Part shown: positions 8,929-18,675 of the stretch, in pieces
Position numbering within the stretch: the stretch's first letter is position 1
How the letters are laid out: every line of letters begins with the position of its first letter
Source of the DNA: an uncultured Clostridia bacterium
Lineage (GTDB): Bacteria > Bacillota > Clostridia > Oscillospirales > Acutalibacteraceae
DNA: 64,000 nucleotides
Assembly (NCBI GenBank): GCA_947598155.1
Contig: CANQFC010000004.1
Span: forward strand, 1 to 64,000
Direction: 5' to 3'
The notes under the pieces: generated by a model
What the model was told of the DNA's origin: nothing
What the model saw: the letters and a program-made list of their open reading frames with translations, nothing else
Databases searched by the model: none
Program-made: the position numbers and the translations under genes

Positions 8929-10389
8929 ATGCCGATAATGGTAGAAAGAAATAAATGGATATTATATAAGCATACCTCAAACTATGAACTAATTAAAGCC
9001 GTTGCTCTTGATGTAAAAAACAGTTGCAAGACGAATATTTCTAACACAGAACGTGAAAGAATGCAGGAACGACTTGCCGCATTGAATATGTATAAAACGA
9101 GAAATCCCAAAGAAAAACCTCTTGACTCTATCAACCATAGAATCAACACTTTAGAGTATTTTATGTTTGGATACGAAGATGATTCTGATGGCAAACGTTT
9201 TATATTTAGCCCATTAGGAAACCTATTTTTAAAGCATATAAACGACGAGGAAAAGCTGATTAAGATATTTACAACAATGCTGTACGCAATACAGTTCCAA
9301 CATCCGGCAAGCGGAACGGACAAAGAATTTCAGTTATATCCATTTAGACTGATTTTTAAATTGTTAACAGACGAGCGTTTAGATGGGAAGTTGTATAATT
9401 ACGAATATGCATTACTCATCGCTTTTGTTGATTTAATGAATGCTTCTAAGTATGAAGATTTAGTTGAAAAGATATTAGATTTAAGGAAAAAGTCCGATGA
9501 AGAAATTGAAAAGATATATAAAACGGACGAACATACATACGTAAATGCAGTTTATGAGTGGGAGTATTATACTTGTAAGTTATTATCTTCTATCGGGATT
9601 TTTGATAGGACGAAAGGAAATACCATTTGCAAGTTATATCATCCGACAAAGTCGGGCAGCCACAGCAATCCAACAGGAAGAACTGCAAGAAACGGTTATG
9701 TTTCTTTAACCAATAAAGTCAAAGATTTTGTTGTTTTGCTATTAAATAGATATTCTTATGCTCAACAACCGTTAAAGTTAGACGATCCTGAAAGGATGAC
9801 TTTGGACGTCGTAAAAGAAATATATAGCTTTTACCCGCCGGAGTTGATGAACGAAATAGGCGAAAGCGACGAGTTATCATCATTATTAGAGTTGCCGAAA
9901 CTAATTGAGGAATATTCAAACAACCCCGATAACGACACGGCTTATTTATTCGAAGAAGTTCTTGATGAAGGTTTCAGTATGTTCTATAACGTTCAAACCA
10001 AGAGAATTGGCGGCGCAGGGCATACGGATATTGAATGTTTGTATTTAACAAAGAAAAAGAAGTTTGCGGTGGAATCAAAATCCACGGCAAACAAGTTGAG
10101 CGGTATCAATATTGGTAGATTGCGAGAACATAGAGAGGAAATCGGCGGAGAATACACAATTGTAATTACGCCACGATACGTCCCTGCCGCAAAAAGAGAT
10201 ATTAAAGGTGCTCCAATTGTAATTATTTTAGCAAGTACCTTTGCCGAGTATCTATATAATCATATTTTCCACGATGTTAGAGACGTTGATTATGCAGACT
10301 TTGACGATATAATAATTGAACACCTTGGCGAGGACGTGAGCAAATTTATATCTGATATGACTATGGCTAAGTTTGCTGTTAATAGTTGA
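8929..10389 (+). CDS. PD-(D/E)XK restriction endonuclease
   Basis: The 486-residue protein lies directly behind the two methyltransferases. The C-terminal part has a nuclease signature: Asp367 in GHTDIE, then Glu382 and Lys384 in VESKS. This is the D...E-x-K constellation of PD-(D/E)XK enzymes. The N-terminal 350 residues have no motif I can name and are likely the target-recognition part. That layout, with a terminal cleavage domain and a large recognition domain, fits type IIS enzymes such as the AlwI or FokI class. The exact family is not certain. It probably cuts the unmethylated site protected by the two m5C enzymes. Confidence 0.8.
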   Translation: MPIMVERNKWILYKHTSNYELIKAVALDVKNSCKTNISNTERERMQERLAALNMYKTRNPKEKPLDSINHRINTLEYFMFGYEDDSDGKRFIFSPLGNLFLKHINDEEKLIKIFTTMLYAIQFQHPASGTDKEFQLYPFRLIFKLLTDERLDGKLYNYEYALLIAFVDLMNASKYEDLVEKILDLRKKSDEEIEKIYKTDEHTYVNAVYEWEYYTCKLLSSIGIFDRTKGNTICKLYHPTKSGSHSNPTGRTARNGYVSLTNKVKDFVVLLLNRYSYAQQPLKLDDPERMTLDVVKEIYSFYPPELMNEIGESDELSSLLELPKLIEEYSNNPDNDTAYLFEEVLDEGFSMFYNVQTKRIGGAGHTDIECLYLTKKKKFAVESKSTANKLSGINIGRLREHREEIGGEYTIVITPRYVPAAKRDIKGAPIVIILASTFAEYLYNHIFHDVRDVDYADFDDIIIEHLGEDVSKFISDMTMAKFAVNS

Positions 10390-10391
10390 TT

Positions 10392-10799
10392 ATGGCAGAC
10401 GTATTTGATAGTAAAAAACGCTCTGACATAATGAGTAAAGTCCGCTCCAATAACAATAAATCAACTGAATTAGCTCTTATAAAATTCTTTAAAGAAAATA
10501 ATATAACCGGTTGGAAACGCAATTATCCTGTAAAAGGTCATCCTGATTTTGTTTTTCTTGATAAGAAGATTGCTGTTTTTGTCGACGGTTGCTTTTGGCA
10601 CGGACACGATTGTAGAAATACTCGTCCTTCCGATAATGCTGAATATTGGCAGAAAAAACGAGAAAGAAACATTAAGCACGATAAAGAAGTTACGGCAATG
10701 TTTGAAAATCGCGGATGGACAGTTATTCGTATTTGGGAATGCGAACTAAGAAAAAAGAACAGAGAAAATCTCTTGGATAAAATTAAGAAGCGTTCTTAA
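10392..10799 (+). CDS. vsr: very-short-patch repair endonuclease (Vsr)
   Basis: The 135-residue mismatch endonuclease nicks 5' of T in T:G mismatches, which arise when 5-methylcytosine deaminates. Signature segments are RSDIMSKVRSNNNKSTE, GHPDFVF with the catalytic Asp, FVDGCFWHGHDC with the zinc/catalytic histidines, and the YWQKK motif. I chose the ATG at 10392; a TTG at 10386 is also possible. It overlaps or abuts the nuclease stop. Vsr genes accompany m5C restriction systems to limit the mutation cost of methylation, so its presence supports the C5 assignment of both methyltransferases. Confidence 0.96.
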   Translation: MADVFDSKKRSDIMSKVRSNNNKSTELALIKFFKENNITGWKRNYPVKGHPDFVFLDKKIAVFVDGCFWHGHDCRNTRPSDNAEYWQKKRERNIKHDKEVTAMFENRGWTVIRIWECELRKKNRENLLDKIKKRS

Positions 10800-13120: not shown

Positions 13121-13684
13121 TTATTTCAGTGCAAGACCGTCCTTAAACGCTTCGCCCACCCGTTCGGATACCCGGTAATAGCCGTGCGTATAGGGGTCAA
13201 AGGCGATGGCGTTCACCAACGACAAATCAAGTTTGCCGTTCGGCATAACACGCTCATCGGCTGTGACATTGACCACTTTTCCAATCACACCGCAGCCGTA
13301 TTCATTCCCCTGATACTCGATAAATTCGCACTCCAGACAAAGCGGGAATTCGTTGATGACCGGTGCGTCGACTGTCTCGGCCTTACTTGCGGTCAGCCCC
13401 GCTTTTGCCAGCTTATCCGTCACTTTTTTGCCGGATTCCACCCCGAAATAATCCGCCTCTTTCACATGGGCGGCATCGGCGATGCTCACGGTAAACGCGC
13501 CCCGCTTTTTGATGTTCTGCACGGTCTTGTGCGTTTCGGTCAGGTTGAGCGCCACGGTGTTTCGCTCCTGCATCGTTCCCCACGCGGCGTTCATCACATT
13601 TACACTGCCGTCATCGTTATAGGTTGCGACCATCAGCACCGGCATCGGGAAAATTCCTTCGGTAATGTTCAGTTTCTTTCTCAT
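13121..13684 (-). CDS. flavin reductase-like FMN-binding protein
   Basis: The 187-residue protein has the split-barrel flavin reductase fold, with PMPVLMVATYNDDGSVNVMN at the N-terminus and NLTETHKTVQNIKKRGAFTV as the FMN-phosphate region. Members reduce or bind FMN in the cytosol and often supply reducing equivalents to partner enzymes or reduce quinones and iron. It is transcribed behind the HxlR regulator with a 29-base gap. Codon use is GC-rich like the rest of the 13.1-18.7 kb island. The physiological acceptor is unknown. Confidence 0.9.
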   Translation of the reverse strand: MRKKLNITEGIFPMPVLMVATYNDDGSVNVMNAAWGTMQERNTVALNLTETHKTVQNIKKRGAFTVSIADAAHVKEADYFGVESGKKVTDKLAKAGLTASKAETVDAPVINEFPLCLECEFIEYQGNEYGCGVIGKVVNVTADERVMPNGKLDLSLVNAIAFDPYTHGYYRVSERVGEAFKDGLALK

Positions 13685-13713: not shown

Positions 13714-14055
13714 TTACTTTGTCGTTTGAGACAAGGATGATTTATACCCCTCGCCCCACGCTTTCATGGAATCAAGAATCGGGCGCAACGATTCACCAAG
13801 CTCCGACAGCGCATACTCCACCCTCGGCGGAACTTCCGGGTACACAGTGCGGGTAATGAGGCCGTCCGCTTCCATAGACCGCAGGCTGTCCGTCAGTACC
13901 TTTTGGCTGATACCTTCCAGATTCTTTTGAAGCTCGTTGAAACGCCACGGGCGCCCCAGCAAATTTCGTATGATTAAAAGTTTCCACTTGTTCCCGATGA
14001 GCTGAACAGTAGTCGCTACGGGACATTCGGGGATGAGTTCGGCTTTTGTTTTCAT
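13714..14055 (-). CDS. HxlR-family winged-helix regulator
   Basis: The 113-residue protein carries the HxlR signature: a Cys near the N-terminus (PECPVATTVQLIGNKWKLLI), RFNELQKNLEGISQKVLTDS as the DNA-recognition helices, and the RVEYALSELG wing. HxlR/YodB/QorR relatives sense electrophiles or disulfide stress through this Cys (here Cys11). The start follows GGAGGTG. It is divergent from the ACGX peptide and directly upstream of the flavin reductase, so both directions may be under its control. Confidence 0.95.
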   Translation of the reverse strand: MKTKAELIPECPVATTVQLIGNKWKLLIIRNLLGRPWRFNELQKNLEGISQKVLTDSLRSMEADGLITRTVYPEVPPRVEYALSELGESLRPILDSMKAWGEGYKSSLSQTTK

Positions 14056-14124: not shown

Positions 14125-14202
14125 TAGTTTCGAACGGGTTCACGAAAAATTAAAAATTGATTTTGCCGTAAAACGCCCTAAACACCCAAAAGTTACAAAA
14201 AG

Positions 14203-14258
14203 GTGCGTATCCCCATAAAAAAGTGCGTACTTGTGCGGAGAAAAAATATTCGTACAAT
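14203..14258 (+). promoter_or_regulatory. promoter and GTGCGTA repeats before the ACGX peptide
   Basis: TTGTGC (14231-14236) and TACAAT (14253-14258) are separated by 16 bases, 52 bases before the peptide start. Immediately upstream GTGCGTA occurs at 14203-14209 and 14223-14229, two direct copies 20 bases apart (two helical turns). They are a possible activator or HxlR binding site. Operator function is inferred. Confidence 0.55.
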
Positions 14259-14309
14259 GATAGATACAGGAGGCAAAAAGCTCCCTGAATCCATAAGGAG
14301 GTACGAAAA

Positions 14310-14513
14310 ATGGCACTTTCTAATCTCGCCGGATGGACTGAGGACAAGGCAGCTTCCGCCTGTGGTGCAGCTTGTGGTGCGGCTGACAAGCCCGCTAAGA
14401 CCCCTACTGCTTGCGGTGCGGCTGACAAGCCGGAGGAAAAGCCGGCCGCCTGTGGCTCTGCCTGTGGCGCTGGTGACAAACCCGCCGAGGCTCCTGCTGC
14501 TTGCGGTGCCTAA
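14310..14513 (+). CDS. ACGX-repeat RiPP precursor peptide
   Basis: The 67-residue peptide has a short leader (MALSNLAGWTEDKAAS) and six Ala-Cys-Gly units separated by Ala, Lys, Pro and Glu linkers such as AADKPAKTPT and AADKPEEKPA. Each cysteine sits in ACG-A or ACG-S. This matches the ACGX-repeat peptides that accompany a dedicated radical SAM/SPASM enzyme, which lies 299 bases downstream. The likely modification is a crosslink or other change at or near the cysteines; the product is unknown. The start is preceded by AAGGAGG. A fragment of the same repeat (GAADKPE) reappears at 14626-14649 after an inserted hairpin segment, so the tail may have been cut short. Confidence 0.9.
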   Translation: MALSNLAGWTEDKAASACGAACGAADKPAKTPTACGAADKPEEKPAACGSACGAGDKPAEAPAACGA

Positions 14514-14514
14514 T

Positions 14515-14589
14515 GGGGCTCCGCGAAAAGTCGCAAGACTTTTTGGGGAGAGGAGGAGCAACGGCGTAAGCGAGCTTTTCGTGCCCCGC
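14515..14589 (+). repeat. imperfect inverted-repeat segment inside the ACGX region
   Basis: GGGGCTCCGCGAAAAG (14515-14530) is complementary to CTTTTCGTGCCCC (to 14587) and encloses a purine-rich loop containing GGGGAGAGGAGGAGC. The bases that follow (14626-14649) read as the continuation of the precursor repeat in another frame, so this looks like a small insertion into the 3' end of the peptide gene. I recall similar GGGGAGAGGAGGAGC intergenic elements in gut Firmicutes but cannot verify that here. Confidence 0.5.
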
Positions 14590-14661
14590 ACGGAAACGAG
14601 CGATACAAAGTTTGCGACGACGAGTGGCGCTGCTGACAAGCCGGAGTAAGTTTACCCCCCC

Positions 14662-14775
14662 AACCGTTCCCGGTGGGAGCGATCCTCCCGGGAACCACGG
14701 TTGCGCAAGCAACAAGGTTCCCGGGACCCGCCCGAAATCTTCGATTTCGCTGGCGGGTGGGGTTCTTATTATTTT
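14662..14775 (+). terminator. nested hairpins and terminator between precursor and maturase
   Basis: A large hairpin (AACCG at 14662 with CGGTT near 14704, and GGGAACC with GGTTCCC) is followed by a strong stem ACCCGCC-CGAAATC/GATTTCG-TGGCGGGT at 14726-14758 and a T-rich tail. A partial terminator here would keep precursor mRNA in excess over the radical SAM message, as is common in RiPP operons. Confidence 0.7.
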
Positions 14776-14812
14776 TCGGTTTGACCGATTTTACATAAAG
14801 CGAGGACTGACA

Positions 14813-15856
14813 TTGAAACAATATTTTTCTTTCCAATGGCATATCACCGACGAGTGTGATCAGCGCTGCAAACACTGTTATATTTTCTCCGGGGATAAGT
14901 GCCACGAGCTCAAAAGTATGACATGGGCGCAGATAGAGGACACCTTTTATAACTGTCTGGATTTCTGCGAGGTGTATGACCGCCTGCCCTATTTCTACCT
15001 GACCGGCGGCGACCCCATCCTGCACCCGGATTTTTGGCGGTTGCTGGCTCTATTCAAAGAACGGGGTGTCCCGTTTACCATCATGGGCAACCCGTTTCAC
15101 TTAAACGATCAGGTGTGCCGGGAGATGAAATACTACGGCTGTGAAAAGTACCAGCTTTCCCTTGACGGCCTCCATGAGACCCACGACTGGTTCCGCAAGC
15201 CCGGCTCTTTTGACTGCACGATAGAAAAGATTGGGTGTATCAACCGTTCAGGAATACGAAGCGTGATTATGACGACGGTATCCAAAACAAACCGCATGGA
15301 GGTGCCGGGGATCATCGACGCGGTGGTGGCGGCGGGAGCAAATGTATTTGCCTTTTCCCGCTATGTTCCCAGTGGCGGCGATCTGGACGCCTCCATGACG
15401 CCGCAGGAGTACCGGGAACTGCTGGCAATCTGCGATAAGAAATTCAAAGAATATGAGGCGGAGGGCGCAGAGACTTATTTCAACAAAAAAGATCACCTCT
15501 GGACGCTTTATGAGTATGAGACGGGGACTTTCAAAATCCCCGCAGACGCAAAGGAAGACATAATTTACGGCGGGTGCAACTGCGGCAACTGCCATATCAC
15601 GATCCTGCCCACCGGCGATGTGTACGCTTGCCGGCGCGTTGCGGAGAGTAAAGTCGGCAATGTATTTACCGACCGGCTGGCGGATGTGTGGGTGTGCGAA
15701 ATGGAGCAGTACCGGGAGTACGACAAATTCGTCAAATGCGGAAAATGTGAATTAAAGGCGTGGTGTCGTGGCTGTCCCGCCGTGGCAAAGGGAACAAACG
15801 GCGATTTTTACGCCGCCGACCCGCAATGTTGGAAAGAAATCAATGAGGTATTATAA
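14813..15856 (+). CDS. radical SAM/SPASM enzyme, ACGX system
   Basis: The 347-residue enzyme has the radical SAM cluster motif CDQRCKHC at residues 15-22, a TIM-barrel core (YFYLTGGDPILHPDFW) and a C-terminal SPASM domain with many cysteines (GCNCGNC, VKCGKCELKAWCRGC, DPQCW) for auxiliary [4Fe-4S] clusters. Such enzymes modify ribosomal peptides at cysteine or neighbouring residues. I chose the TTG start at 14813 because GAGG lies 7 bases upstream and the core motif then starts at the usual distance. The extension from 14612 covers the hairpin region. It is followed with no gap by the nitroreductase. The natural substrate is very likely the ACG-repeat peptide upstream. Confidence 0.93.
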   Translation: MKQYFSFQWHITDECDQRCKHCYIFSGDKCHELKSMTWAQIEDTFYNCLDFCEVYDRLPYFYLTGGDPILHPDFWRLLALFKERGVPFTIMGNPFHLNDQVCREMKYYGCEKYQLSLDGLHETHDWFRKPGSFDCTIEKIGCINRSGIRSVIMTTVSKTNRMEVPGIIDAVVAAGANVFAFSRYVPSGGDLDASMTPQEYRELLAICDKKFKEYEAEGAETYFNKKDHLWTLYEYETGTFKIPADAKEDIIYGGCNCGNCHITILPTGDVYACRRVAESKVGNVFTDRLADVWVCEMEQYREYDKFVKCGKCELKAWCRGCPAVAKGTNGDFYAADPQCWKEINEVL

Positions 15857-16444
15857 ATGAGCGAACTAAAAGAGACGATAATGCACCGTCGGGCGATTCG
15901 GCGGTTTGAAGAAAAGCAAATTGATGAAGCCGCCTTACAGGAGATATTGGAAGCAGGCTTGTATGCGCCCAGTGCCGGCGGACGGCAGGGCGTGCTATTT
16001 GTGGTCTCACAGGACAGCGAGGTAAATGAAAAACTGGGAAAAATCAAGCGAGCAAACTCCAACCCGCAAATGGCGACGGCGACAAGCTATGTATCCAAAG
16101 AACAGCCCAGCATTGCAGATGATTCCAATTTGAAAAACGCGTTTTACGATGCCCCCACTGTGATTACGCTGTTTGCGCCAAAGAATTTCCTTTTTGCTGC
16201 GGAGGACTGCGCCTGCGCCGCCGAAAACATGATGCTCATGGCCGATTTCCTCGGCGTTGGCTCCTGTTATATCGGGCAGGGCTGGACGGCATTTGCCGAC
16301 CCTTACGGGCAGGAGGTTTTACAAAGCTGGAATATCCGCACAGACTACTATGCGGTGATGCAGATTCTGCTTGGCTATCCAAAAGAGTGTGACAATCACC
16401 CGACACCGAAGCCCCGCAAAGGCGGACGGGTGTTGCGGTTTTGA
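15857..16444 (+). CDS. nitroreductase-family FMN oxidoreductase
   Basis: The 195-residue protein has the nitroreductase fold: HRRAIRRFEEKQID at the N-terminus for FMN phosphate, YAPSAGGRQG and the C-terminal VMQILLGYP. These dimeric FMN enzymes use NAD(P)H or a ferredoxin. It begins one base after the radical SAM stop and overlaps the next gene region, which encodes a flavin/ferredoxin fusion that could be its electron donor. In RiPP operons relatives catalyse dehydrogenations such as azole formation, so a role in peptide maturation is possible but not shown. Confidence 0.92.
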   Translation: MSELKETIMHRRAIRRFEEKQIDEAALQEILEAGLYAPSAGGRQGVLFVVSQDSEVNEKLGKIKRANSNPQMATATSYVSKEQPSIADDSNLKNAFYDAPTVITLFAPKNFLFAAEDCACAAENMMLMADFLGVGSCYIGQGWTAFADPYGQEVLQSWNIRTDYYAVMQILLGYPKECDNHPTPKPRKGGRVLRF

Positions 16445-16461
16445 GAATGGAGGAACAACAA

Positions 16462-17082
16462 ATGGACGCACAAACTTGTCTCAAAAAATTAGAATATGTC
16501 GGTGTACTGGCTTTTGCCACGGTGGACAAAGACGGCGCGCCGCAGATACGCAACATCTCCGCAATTCACTATGAGCCGGACAGAATGATTTTCTTCACGG
16601 CAAAGGGAAAAGCCTTCTGTGAGGAGCTTTTGACCGACGGGCGCGTGCAGGCGCTGGGCTACACCAAGTATAAAGAGATGATCCGCCTGTCCGCAAAGGC
16701 GATTCCCGTCCCGAAGGACGAGCAGGAAAAGTGGATCGACACGATTTTTGCGGAGCAACCCTATCTCTCGAACGTCTATCCCGGCGACACCCGAAAAATG
16801 GCGGGAATCGTCTTTGAAATAAAGGACGCGGAAATCGAGTATTTTAATCTCGGCGTCAACCCAATTTTTCGGGAGAGCTACACGATCGGTGCGGGAAATC
16901 TCACGCAAAAGGGATATGTCATTTCCGAAAAATGTATCGCCTGCGGAAAGTGCCTTAAAAACTGCCCTCAGCGGTGCATTGAGCCGGGGACGCCCTACCG
17001 TATCCGGCAGAATCACTGCTTACATTGCGGAAATTGCTATGAGGTTTGCCCGGTAAAGGCAGTTGTGAAAAGAGGGATATGA
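16462..17082 (+). CDS. PNPOx-like flavoprotein fused to 2[4Fe-4S] ferredoxin
   Basis: The 206-residue protein has an N-terminal pyridoxamine-phosphate-oxidase-like split barrel (about residues 1-135: GVLAFATVDKDGAPQIRNIS) fused to a C-terminal dicluster ferredoxin with CIACGKCLKNC and CLHCGNCYEVC. It is a plausible cytosolic electron carrier linking a flavin to iron-sulfur clusters. I chose 16462 because GGAGG lies 8 bases upstream; ATG 16447 is in frame but has no such site. The stop overlaps the macrodomain start. The neighbouring radical SAM enzyme and nitroreductase both need electrons, so it probably feeds one of them. Confidence 0.92.
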   Translation: MDAQTCLKKLEYVGVLAFATVDKDGAPQIRNISAIHYEPDRMIFFTAKGKAFCEELLTDGRVQALGYTKYKEMIRLSAKAIPVPKDEQEKWIDTIFAEQPYLSNVYPGDTRKMAGIVFEIKDAEIEYFNLGVNPIFRESYTIGAGNLTQKGYVISEKCIACGKCLKNCPQRCIEPGTPYRIRQNHCLHCGNCYEVCPVKAVVKRGI

Positions 17083-17855
17083 TGACACAAGACGAAAGAA
17101 GAATATATCTTATTCAAAAGTTGATTGACGAACAACCCCTCTATAAGGATTTAACCGTTCCGTCCGATGAAGCGGAACAGAAAAAGCTACTCCGCTCTCT
17201 GATGAACGTCCGCCCGCCGTACCCCATCGGCGAGGATTTTCTGACGGTGCAGGACGAATATCTGCGGGAGGAAACCGCCCGTAAAGGCGTTACGGATATT
17301 GCCGATTTGACGCCCATGGAGCCGGGAATTTATCTCTGGCAGGGCGACATCACCACGCTGAAATGCGGTGCTATTGTCAACGCCGCCAACAGTCAAATGC
17401 TGGGCTGTTTCTGCCCATGTCACGGCTGTATTGATAACGCAATTCACACTTATGCGGGCATTCAACTCCGGCTTGCCTGTGCAAAACTTATGGAAAGACA
17501 AGGACACGAGGAAGAAACGGGCAAGGCAAAGCTCACACCCGCCTACAACCTGCCCTGCGATTACATTCTCCACACCGTCGGACCTATAATACACGGCGGC
17601 GTGACGGAGAAAGACAAGATACTGCTTGCCTCCTGCTATCGCTCCTGTCTGGAACTCGCCGAGCAAAACGAAATCGGGAGCGTGGCGTTCTGCTGTATTT
17701 CCACGGGGGAATTTCATTTCCCGAATGATAAAGCGGCAGAAATCGCCGTACAGACGGTAAAGGAATACAGGCGGCAGACAAGTAGTAAAATTGAGGTGAT
17801 TTTCAATGTTTTCAAAGATACCGATTACGAAATCTACCGGGAGTTACTCGGATAA
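17079..17855 (+). CDS. zinc-type macrodomain protein (ADP-ribosyl hydrolase)
   Basis: The 258-residue protein has an N-terminal helical extension (residues 1-80) and a macrodomain. ADP-ribose-binding motifs are LWQGDITTLKCGAIVNAAN and CCISTGEFHFP; the insertion MLGCFCPCHGCIDNAIH carries the Cys/His set of the zinc-containing class. That class is encoded beside SirTM sirtuins and removes mono-ADP-ribose from the proteins they modify. Two ATG codons at 17079 and 17082 follow AGAGGGA. It overlaps the sirtuin gene by 50 bases. No GcvH-L or LplA partner, usual in SirTM operons, is present nearby. Confidence 0.93.
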   Translation: MMTQDERRIYLIQKLIDEQPLYKDLTVPSDEAEQKKLLRSLMNVRPPYPIGEDFLTVQDEYLREETARKGVTDIADLTPMEPGIYLWQGDITTLKCGAIVNAANSQMLGCFCPCHGCIDNAIHTYAGIQLRLACAKLMERQGHEEETGKAKLTPAYNLPCDYILHTVGPIIHGGVTEKDKILLASCYRSCLELAEQNEIGSVAFCCISTGEFHFPNDKAAEIAVQTVKEYRRQTSSKIEVIFNVFKDTDYEIYRELLG

Positions 17856-18675
17856 TGTAAACCGCCTTCGGGAGGCGCTGGACAAAGCGGACGCCGTTGT
17901 GGTGGGCGCAGGCGCGGGTCTTTCCACCTCGGCTGGATTTACCTATTCGGGCGACCGTTTTCGCAGATACTTTTCAGACTTTGAGAAGAAATACGGCTTT
18001 CGGGATATGTATTCCGGCGGGTTTTATCCGTATTCCTCGCCGGAGGAATTTTGGGCGTATTGGAGCCGATATATCTTCATCAACCGCTATATGGACGCGC
18101 CGAAACCCGTCTACTACGATTTGCTTGCACTGGTTCGGGATAAAGACTATTTTGTCATTACCACGAACGTAGACCACTGTTTTCAAAAAGCGGGCTTTGA
18201 CAAAAAGCGGCTTTTCTATACACAGGGCGACTATGGGCTGTTTCAATGCTCCGAGCCGTGCTGTCAGGAAACCTTTGACAACGAAGATATAATCCGACAG
18301 ATGATGGAACGGCAAAAGGATATGCGGATTCCGTCGGAGCTGTTGCCCGTCTGCCCGCATTGCGGAAAGCCTTTGACGATGAATCTTCGCTCCGACGACA
18401 AGTTTGTGGAGGACGAGGGCTGGCACGAGGCGGCTCAGCGGTACGAGAACTTCCTGCGTACACGAAAAAACGGACGGATATTGTTCTTGGAACTCGGCGT
18501 CGGGTACAACACTCCGGTCATTATTAAATACCCGTTTTGGCAGATGACTGCTGGGAACAAGGCCGCGACTTATGCCTGCATCAACTACGGCGAGGCGGTC
18601 TGCCCGACGGAAATTGAAAAACAGTCGATTTGCATTGATGCAGATATTGAAACAATCCTTTGTGCGCTGGCATAA
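17806..18675 (+). CDS. SirTM-class sirtuin (protein ADP-ribosyltransferase)
   Basis: The 289-residue sirtuin has the NAD-binding GAGAGLSTSAGF at about residues 36-47, TTNVDHCF near residue 120, and zinc ligands in CSEPCC and CPHCGK. The usual catalytic histidine (HG) is replaced: the segment reads YTQGDYG. That substitution is known in the SirTM group, which transfers ADP-ribose to a protein rather than deacetylating. The start at 17806 has GAGGTGAT upstream and lies inside the macrodomain gene. The writer and eraser are thus translationally linked. The target protein in this organism is unknown; the usual lipoylated GcvH-L is not encoded here. Confidence 0.92.
   Translation: MFSKIPITKSTGSYSDNVNRLREALDKADAVVVGAGAGLSTSAGFTYSGDRFRRYFSDFEKKYGFRDMYSGGFYPYSSPEEFWAYWSRYIFINRYMDAPKPVYYDLLALVRDKDYFVITTNVDHCFQKAGFDKKRLFYTQGDYGLFQCSEPCCQETFDNEDIIRQMMERQKDMRIPSELLPVCPHCGKPLTMNLRSDDKFVEDEGWHEAAQRYENFLRTRKNGRILFLELGVGYNTPVIIKYPFWQMTAGNKAATYACINYGEAVCPTEIEKQSICIDADIETILCALA

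Follow-up and report, generated by a model that had tools for sequence, protein, structure and literature searches.

An ACGX radical SAM peptide operon that includes a SirTM/zinc macrodomain pair in an uncultured Clostridia bacterium

What does a reversible ADP-ribosylation system act on when the lipoylated carrier GcvH-L is absent? The question is raised by a run of six genes on the + strand (14310-18675) of contig CANQFC010000004.1 (assembly GCA_947598155.1), from an uncultured Clostridia bacterium; the first 64,000 nucleotides of the contig were analysed and are here called the window. In this run a class M sirtuin (SirTM) and a zinc macrodomain protein, a predicted writer and a predicted eraser of ADP-ribose, are encoded behind a cysteine-rich peptide of the ACGX system, the radical S-adenosylmethionine (SAM) enzyme of that system, a nitroreductase and a PNPOx-ferredoxin fusion protein. 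The union of ACGX and SirTM genes is not a matter of chance, the arrangement going far beyond it, and the peptide/radical SAM module and the SirTM/macrodomain pair are likely to be coupled in function. In many gut bacteria the genes for a cysteine-rich modified peptide stand beside those for an ADP-ribose writer and eraser, a hint that this pair may have the peptide as a target so far overlooked.

Linkage of the ACGX module to SirTM

The features of the run, all on the + strand, are as follows.

14310..14513, +: ACGX-repeat precursor peptide, 67 amino acids (aa), six ACG units (TIGR04341, 67.8 bits, cut-off 28)
14515..14625, +: repeat element at the C-terminal end of the peptide gene (second genomic copy, 78% identical)
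14813..15856, +: radical SAM/SPASM enzyme of the ACGX system, TTG start (TIGR04340, 587 bits, cut-off 400)
15857..16444, +: nitroreductase-family flavoenzyme (PF00881)
16447..17082, +: PNPOx domain fused to a two-cluster ferredoxin domain (PF01243, Fer4 models)
17082..17855, +: zinc macrodomain, predicted ADP-ribosyl hydrolase (NF003163, 371 bits, cut-off 272)
17806..18675, +: class M sirtuin, predicted ADP-ribosyltransferase (251 bits to 5A3A)

The six genes, including the peptide with its six units, thus lie in one orientation as the initial annotation of the locus had it, and their families are supported by profile matches. The tiny gaps and overlaps that it described are found from the radical SAM gene through the SirTM gene, where the intergenic distances are 0, 2-17, -1 and -50 bases, but not between the peptide and radical SAM genes, which are 299 bases apart. 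Its start at 14203 belongs to an open reading frame (ORF) in another frame; the peptide gene begins at 14310. The PNPOx-ferredoxin protein, which has two 4Fe-4S motifs, starts either at 16447 or at 16462, the latter with the better ribosome site as judged by eye.

One genome per species was scanned with five aligned radical SAM enzymes. The best 80 of at least 549 relatives were taken as named loci, and four loci from the bacterium's own family were added, giving 84. Many of the 80 come from metagenome-assembled genomes titled 'Lapin' (read as rabbit), so these cannot be treated as independent rows, and mixed bins may be among them. Linkage was counted wherever no less than 4.5 kb of downstream sequence was available, which left 52 loci and dropped 32. 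SirTM is found in 34 of the 52 loci, in the same orientation and at a distance of up to 8 kb, in 32 of them together with the macrodomain. The PNPOx-ferredoxin gene is present in 35, a nitroreductase (NTR) in 30 and a zinc-type quinone oxidoreductase (QOR) in 18, with one or the other of these two oxidoreductases in 47. When the five gene types (NTR, QOR, PNPOx-ferredoxin, macrodomain, SirTM) are followed through the 34 linked loci, nine different gene orders are found; SirTM lies upstream of the macrodomain in L112 and also in L096, which is not among the 52. Linked loci include those of Butyrivibrio sp. INlla14 (L071) and Ruminococcus bromii YE282 (L113). In G017, a further ACGX genome of the own family, the contig stops about 320 bases beyond the macrodomain ORF, and any SirTM gene behind it would be out of view. 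SirTM without an adjacent macrodomain was seen at L042, L048, L056, L060, L067, L084 and L107, yet all seven genomes contain a macrodomain match (a partial one for L042), and a macrodomain-free form of the system was rejected.

Eighteen ACGX genomes have no linked SirTM, and in 13 of these SirTM is found elsewhere in the genome (this search took in 26 genomes in all, of which 19 had SirTM). In a SirTM tree of 102 rows, 47 of them linked, at least eight changes of linkage state are forced by well-supported branches, and 18 occur in the best tree; the tree was made by a quick method with SH-aLRT support only, contains one pair of long branches that meet, and is unrooted, gains and losses being indistinguishable. 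The forced changes rule out a single old fusion that has merely been inherited.

Co-occurrence was counted in a class sample of 391 genomes, with the radical SAM enzyme called at E values up to 1e-100. SirTM is present in 16 of 16 genomes with the ACGX enzyme versus 53 of 375 others (p 2e-13), by genus in 10 of 10 versus 37 of 213 (p 8e-8), and within the order in 4 of 4 versus 4 of 14 (p 0.023); these p-values ignore kinship, which inflates the figures. The co-occurrence that the initial annotation had proposed as a check is therefore strong at class level, but not within the bacterium's own family, to which we return below. The two genes share one stretch in 13 of the 16 genomes and are apart in G511, G491 and G527, where the contig of G527 stops behind the oxidoreductase. 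Four of the 16 (G341, G450, G460, G491) have lower radical SAM scores (496-528 bits), and the peptides of G341 and G460 have another leader. By linkage and class-level co-occurrence taken together, a chance neighbourhood is ruled out.

Both the enzyme pair and the peptide family are known. Their conserved union could not be found described: among open-licence PMC papers none was found on the ACGX system or on a link between ACGX and SirTM, which is no proof of absence, and the linkage is absent from the model names of TIGR04340 and TIGR04341.

The nitroreductase behind the radical SAM gene is of two unlike kinds at the same place, about 80% or about 40% identical to that of the window; L033 and L062 as against L044 and L065 exemplify the difference.

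The peptide, the enzyme pair and the missing lipoyl carrier

In the window a TIGR04340 radical SAM gene and a TIGR04341 repeat peptide gene adjoin, and their proteins exceed both model cut-offs by far, which places them in the ACGX system. The product would, from these families, be a ribosomally made, modified peptide (RiPP). The peptide is readable at 81 of 85 loci (the window and the 84), and in 75 of the 81 it has a leader-like start, M[AG]L..W. Each peptide has between 2 and 14 CG units, 6 being the commonest value, and 67 of the 81 peptides end in a paired CG module as defined by a rough pattern. The peptide of the window has no paired CG end; at its C-terminal end sits the 111-base repeat (14515-14625), a second copy of which lies at G000:C4:222319-222426 and which is missing from L041 and L037. 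A second stretch missing from L041 and L037, at about 14700-14767 between the peptide and radical SAM genes, has hairpin-like inverted repeats by eye. An attenuating terminator between these genes was considered and is not claimed, the gap holding only a weak stem at 14776; over the whole window 13 terminator-like sites were observed versus 6.4 expected.

The nearest solved relatives of the radical SAM enzyme by sequence are SkfB (6EFN) and the enzymes of 5WGG and 5V1Q, which we take to be CteB and SuiB. They have the same radical SAM/SPASM architecture, with weak similarity (36-54 bits). As a difference from such maturase systems, no peptidase or exporter gene was seen in a fixed place at the loci studied here.

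The SirTM protein scores 21.8 bits against Pfam SIR2, under the cut-off of 24, and its closest solved relative is that of S. pyogenes (SpySirTM, 5A3A). Members of class M are ADP-ribosyltransferases that lack deacylase activity. In class M sirtuins QG replaces the catalytic HG motif, and SpySirTM requires Asn118, Gln137 and Arg192 (excerpts of Rack 2015, PMC4518038). In 11 aligned SirTM rows Q140-G141 is unchanged, and N121, Q140 and R195, the counterparts of the three SpySirTM residues, are kept. GVGYNTP in the window fits GVGx[NT]TP, of which the Val is only nearly invariant in the 11 rows, and the SirTM gene is joined to the macrodomain gene by the overlap of 50 bases. In the macrodomain the zinc loop Cx4HxC (C109, H114, C116), NAAN (N100-N103) and Dx3H (D118, H122) are invariant in 10 rows. 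Its closest solved relative is 8RSI (281 bits), to which it aligns from residue 1, so that the N-terminal extension is present and the protein is of the Zn-Macro type; 8RSI is MorMacro (excerpts of Ariza 2024, PMC11490716). From their conserved residues SirTM and macrodomain are both expected to be catalytically active.

Within 1.5 kb of the macrodomain or SirTM gene, DUF1848 genes are found at L071, L078, L104, L173, L174, L181 and L222, and DUF5131 genes at L039, L063, L113, L116, L165, L169, L218, L223 and L225.

That GcvH-L and LplA are absent, which had been noted for the operon, holds for the entire genome of the bacterium (2.14 Mb, completeness 99.7), where genome-wide profile searches gave no GCV_H match and no LplA-B_cat match. 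A GcvH-L/LplA pair elsewhere in the genome, which the initial annotation had named as a finding that would speak against its proposed link, was looked for and did not materialise, and this simple answer to the question of the SirTM target is ruled out. Among 44 genomes in which ACGX and SirTM genes are linked, 40 are without GcvH, and in the class sample GcvH is matched in 6 of 69 SirTM genomes versus 111 of 322 genomes without SirTM. The sole class-sample genome with a GcvH-like match beside SirTM is G579 (G579:C1:3399777-3402059), where the frame of 284 aa exceeds the domain length.

The premise that known SirTM operons carry GcvH-L and LplA was too narrow, since SirTM/macrodomain pairs without GcvH-L, and indeed without both, appear already in excerpts of Rack 2015 (PMC4518038) and Ariza 2024 (PMC11490716). 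According to the same excerpts, the extended SirTM operon of Staphylococcaceae and Lactobacillales consists of GcvH-L, Zn-Macro, SirTM, LplA2, OYE and LLM, and ADP-ribosylation is modelled as keeping the lipoyl carrier out of oxidant scavenging. With this operon the present locus has in common an overlapping SirTM/zinc macrodomain pair, oxidoreductases alongside, a probable link to oxidative stress, and a small product of carrier type that has a modifying enzyme of its own. Unlike it, the locus has no GcvH-L, LplA, OYE or LLM, and so falls outside that operon type; in their place stand the ACGX peptide, the radical SAM enzyme, the nitroreductase and the PNPOx-ferredoxin protein. Two GcvH-L docking arginines are also gone from the macrodomain. 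In SauMacro, Arg175/176 belong to the modelled GcvH-L interface, a positive docking patch (excerpts of Ariza 2024, PMC11490716), while the matching columns, found by comparison of SauMacro positions with numbering counted by hand, read H-G here and have no Arg in any of 10 rows.

The minimal SirTM/Zn-Macro pair is closer in this respect. MorMacro stems from such a pair in Methanobrevibacter oralis and cannot demodify GcvH-L, and the targets of minimal pairs are stated to be unknown (excerpts of Ariza 2024, PMC11490716). The locus shares with that pair the absence of GcvH-L and has MorMacro (8RSI) as its closest solved macrodomain; it differs in that the two genes follow an HxlR operator and a module of ACGX peptide and radical SAM genes. 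The absence of GcvH and the loss of the two docking arginines make the peptide, or the ferredoxin fusion, more plausible as the SirTM target. Zinc macrodomains are reported to be able to cleave Cys-linked ADP-ribose (excerpts of Ariza 2024, PMC11490716), which would suit a Cys-rich acceptor.

Regulation, a proposed redox switch and its rivals

Upstream of the peptide gene lie the following features.

13121..13684, -: flavin reductase-like gene behind the HxlR gene, of doubtful operon membership (PF01613)
13714..14055, -: HxlR-type repressor gene with one Cys (C11), divergent from the operon (PF01638)
14191..14208, +: putative left operator box AGTTACAAAAAGGTGCGT (conserved words upstream of relatives)
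14219..14234, +: putative right operator box AAAAGTGCGTACTTGT (conserved words upstream of relatives)

Regulators of the HxlR/DUF24 type sense thiol stress via Cys. Of the 62 loci whose upstream sequence covers at least 2 kb, 61 have a divergent HxlR gene there. The HxlR protein of the window has a single Cys, C11, and this residue is kept in 57 of 57 aligned rows, the window included, which together with the PF01638 match puts the protein in the HxlR/DUF24 family. Between the HxlR and peptide genes there are two conserved boxes, AGTTACAAAAAGGTnnnT and AAAAGTGCGTACTTGT. Both occur in 72 of 73 regions read, with a spacing of 27-28 bases in 60 and of 8 bases in 12, and the word AAGTACGCAC, on either strand, is found in 61 of the 68 regions under 420 bases. 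The box models were built on words picked after the sequences had been viewed, a choice of which the AAGTACGCAC counts are independent; the control for box scores, 300 kb of shuffled sequence in which only base composition was kept, gave a top score of 11.7. The right box has a perfect match in the genome of the bacterium solely at this locus, and matches with up to two mismatches at 10 sites versus 6 for the reversed control. It overlaps a possible -35 element (14231-14236), which by eye is followed by a possible -10 at 14253-14258; a promoter scan of the window did not report a promoter at 14231-14258.

What was observed is the gene content, the linkage and co-occurrence, the operator words, the catalytic residues and the lack of GcvH and LplA; a trigger, a peptide chemistry, an acceptor and an effect are inferred in the following way. 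The Cys-containing HxlR protein would repress the operon until it is inactivated, probably by thiol oxidation or by electrophiles. The derepressed cell would then make the Cys-rich ACGX peptide and its radical SAM/SPASM maturase, which, judging by their families, perhaps introduces sulfur-to-carbon cross-links. Oxidoreductases of the flavin, NAD(P)H or Fe-S type would be made with them, and so would the enzymes of a reversible switch by ADP-ribosylation. The matured peptide would most likely stay in the cell as a sulfur carrier that handles redox or electrophile load. An ADP-ribose placed by SirTM on Cys, or on an Asp/Glu within the repeat units, would hold the peptide inactive until the zinc macrodomain releases it. 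The parallel to the extended SirTM operon would be part for part, with the peptide for GcvH-L, the radical SAM enzyme for LplA2, nitroreductase and PNPOx-ferredoxin for OYE and LLM, and the writer and eraser the same. By this analogy it is a fair-sized but still tentative possibility that the locus is a single operon for redox stress, with the matured Cys peptide taking over from lipoyl-GcvH-L as the SirTM target, inactive until freed by the macrodomain. With somewhat more doubt, the peptide matured by the radical SAM enzyme may be a physiological SirTM substrate outside lipoyl-GcvH-L, ADP-ribosylated perhaps on Cys sulfur, the whole forming one redox switch. If so, reversible ADP-ribosylation would be tied to peptide maturation by radical SAM chemistry, with a gene-encoded Cys peptide in place of a lipoylated carrier, and the ACGX radical SAM family would gain its first functional setting. 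The operon names a small, easily made acceptor candidate together with its maturing enzyme, and the question of the acceptor can therefore be put directly to test.

Several observations weigh against this proposal. The modules occur separately, which speaks against strict dependence. Most SirTM genomes of the class sample (53 of 69) are without the ACGX radical SAM enzyme, and SirTM therefore has other targets; conversely, five of the 18 unlinked ACGX genomes (G185, G043, G585, G588, G592) are without SirTM, and their peptides look ordinary. In the own family the contrast in co-occurrence, 2 of 5 versus 30 of 195, is not significant (p 0.18). A GcvH match exists in two ACGX genomes among the 16 of the class sample (G491, clear; G450, weak, 29 bits), and the window's own peptide has an insertion at its end. 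Locus L163 (8178-11172) has lost the radical SAM gene and keeps intact-looking PNPOx-ferredoxin, macrodomain and SirTM genes, preceded by a short ACGX reading frame, a nitroreductase remnant and both operator boxes. Finally, PNPOx is found near SirTM in 25 class-sample genomes, and 17 of these have it at a SirTM locus that lacks the radical SAM gene.

Two rivals to the proposed switch are serious. According to the first, which is unlikely without being far-fetched, there is a shared stress regulon and nothing more: HxlR drives a Cys-peptide/oxidoreductase arm and a SirTM/macrodomain arm that are independent of each other, and the SirTM target lies elsewhere in the cell. The occurrence of each module alone, and the state of L163, fit this well. 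So does the finding of the same operator words, in boxes scoring at least 16, upstream of 14 of the 56 loci of the SirTM sample that lack the radical SAM gene (L163, L169, L178, L182, L185, L192, L193, L198, L200, L202, L206, L207, L225, L227); scores of at least 16 were also obtained at other places in L191 and L216. However, the linkage is much tighter than a regulon needs and is retained across the nine gene orders. Furthermore, 18 SirTM loci were taken from ACGX genomes in which no link was evident; of these only L240 has two strong boxes, and L238 reaches 17 with its left box alone, so that in most of them the co-occurrence would not be accounted for by a shared HxlR regulon. The shared redox-stress regulon of the initial annotation thus gains from the HxlR gene and its operator and loses from the SirTM copies elsewhere, most of which are without operator. 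Of the same 18 loci, L234 carries a second radical SAM gene fragment beside SirTM, and in L240 a DUF1848 gene lies between the operator copy and the SirTM/macrodomain pair.

According to the second rival, which appears improbable, the PNPOx-ferredoxin protein is the target or partner of SirTM, and the ACGX module joined an HxlR-PNPOx-macrodomain-SirTM operon through the same redox chemistry. The SirTM loci that have PNPOx nearby without the radical SAM gene are what it would predict, but many SirTM loci have no PNPOx nearby, and PNPOx-ferredoxin is absent from 10 of the 34 linked loci, which read QOR-Macro-SirTM (6), NTR-Macro-SirTM (3) and NTR-NTR-Macro-SirTM (1). An exported antimicrobial or signal peptide, with redox genes and the SirTM/macrodomain pair protecting or regulating its producer, would agree with the leader-like start and the variable repeat number, but is very improbable, as inspection of the neighbour clusters showed no peptidase or exporter family that keeps a constant place in the operon, ABC and two-component genes turn up at some loci only, in both orientations and at distances that vary, and the regulator and partner enzymes are of the redox type.

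Other genes in the window

The flavin reductase-like gene behind the HxlR gene (13121..13684) is rare among the relatives: a FlavRed match occurs at 3 of 84 loci only, at varying positions. Further upstream, at 8929-10799 of the window, an ORF of 486 aa is followed by a second ORF, which we presume to resemble a Vsr-type mismatch endonuclease; the two are perhaps part of a restriction locus.

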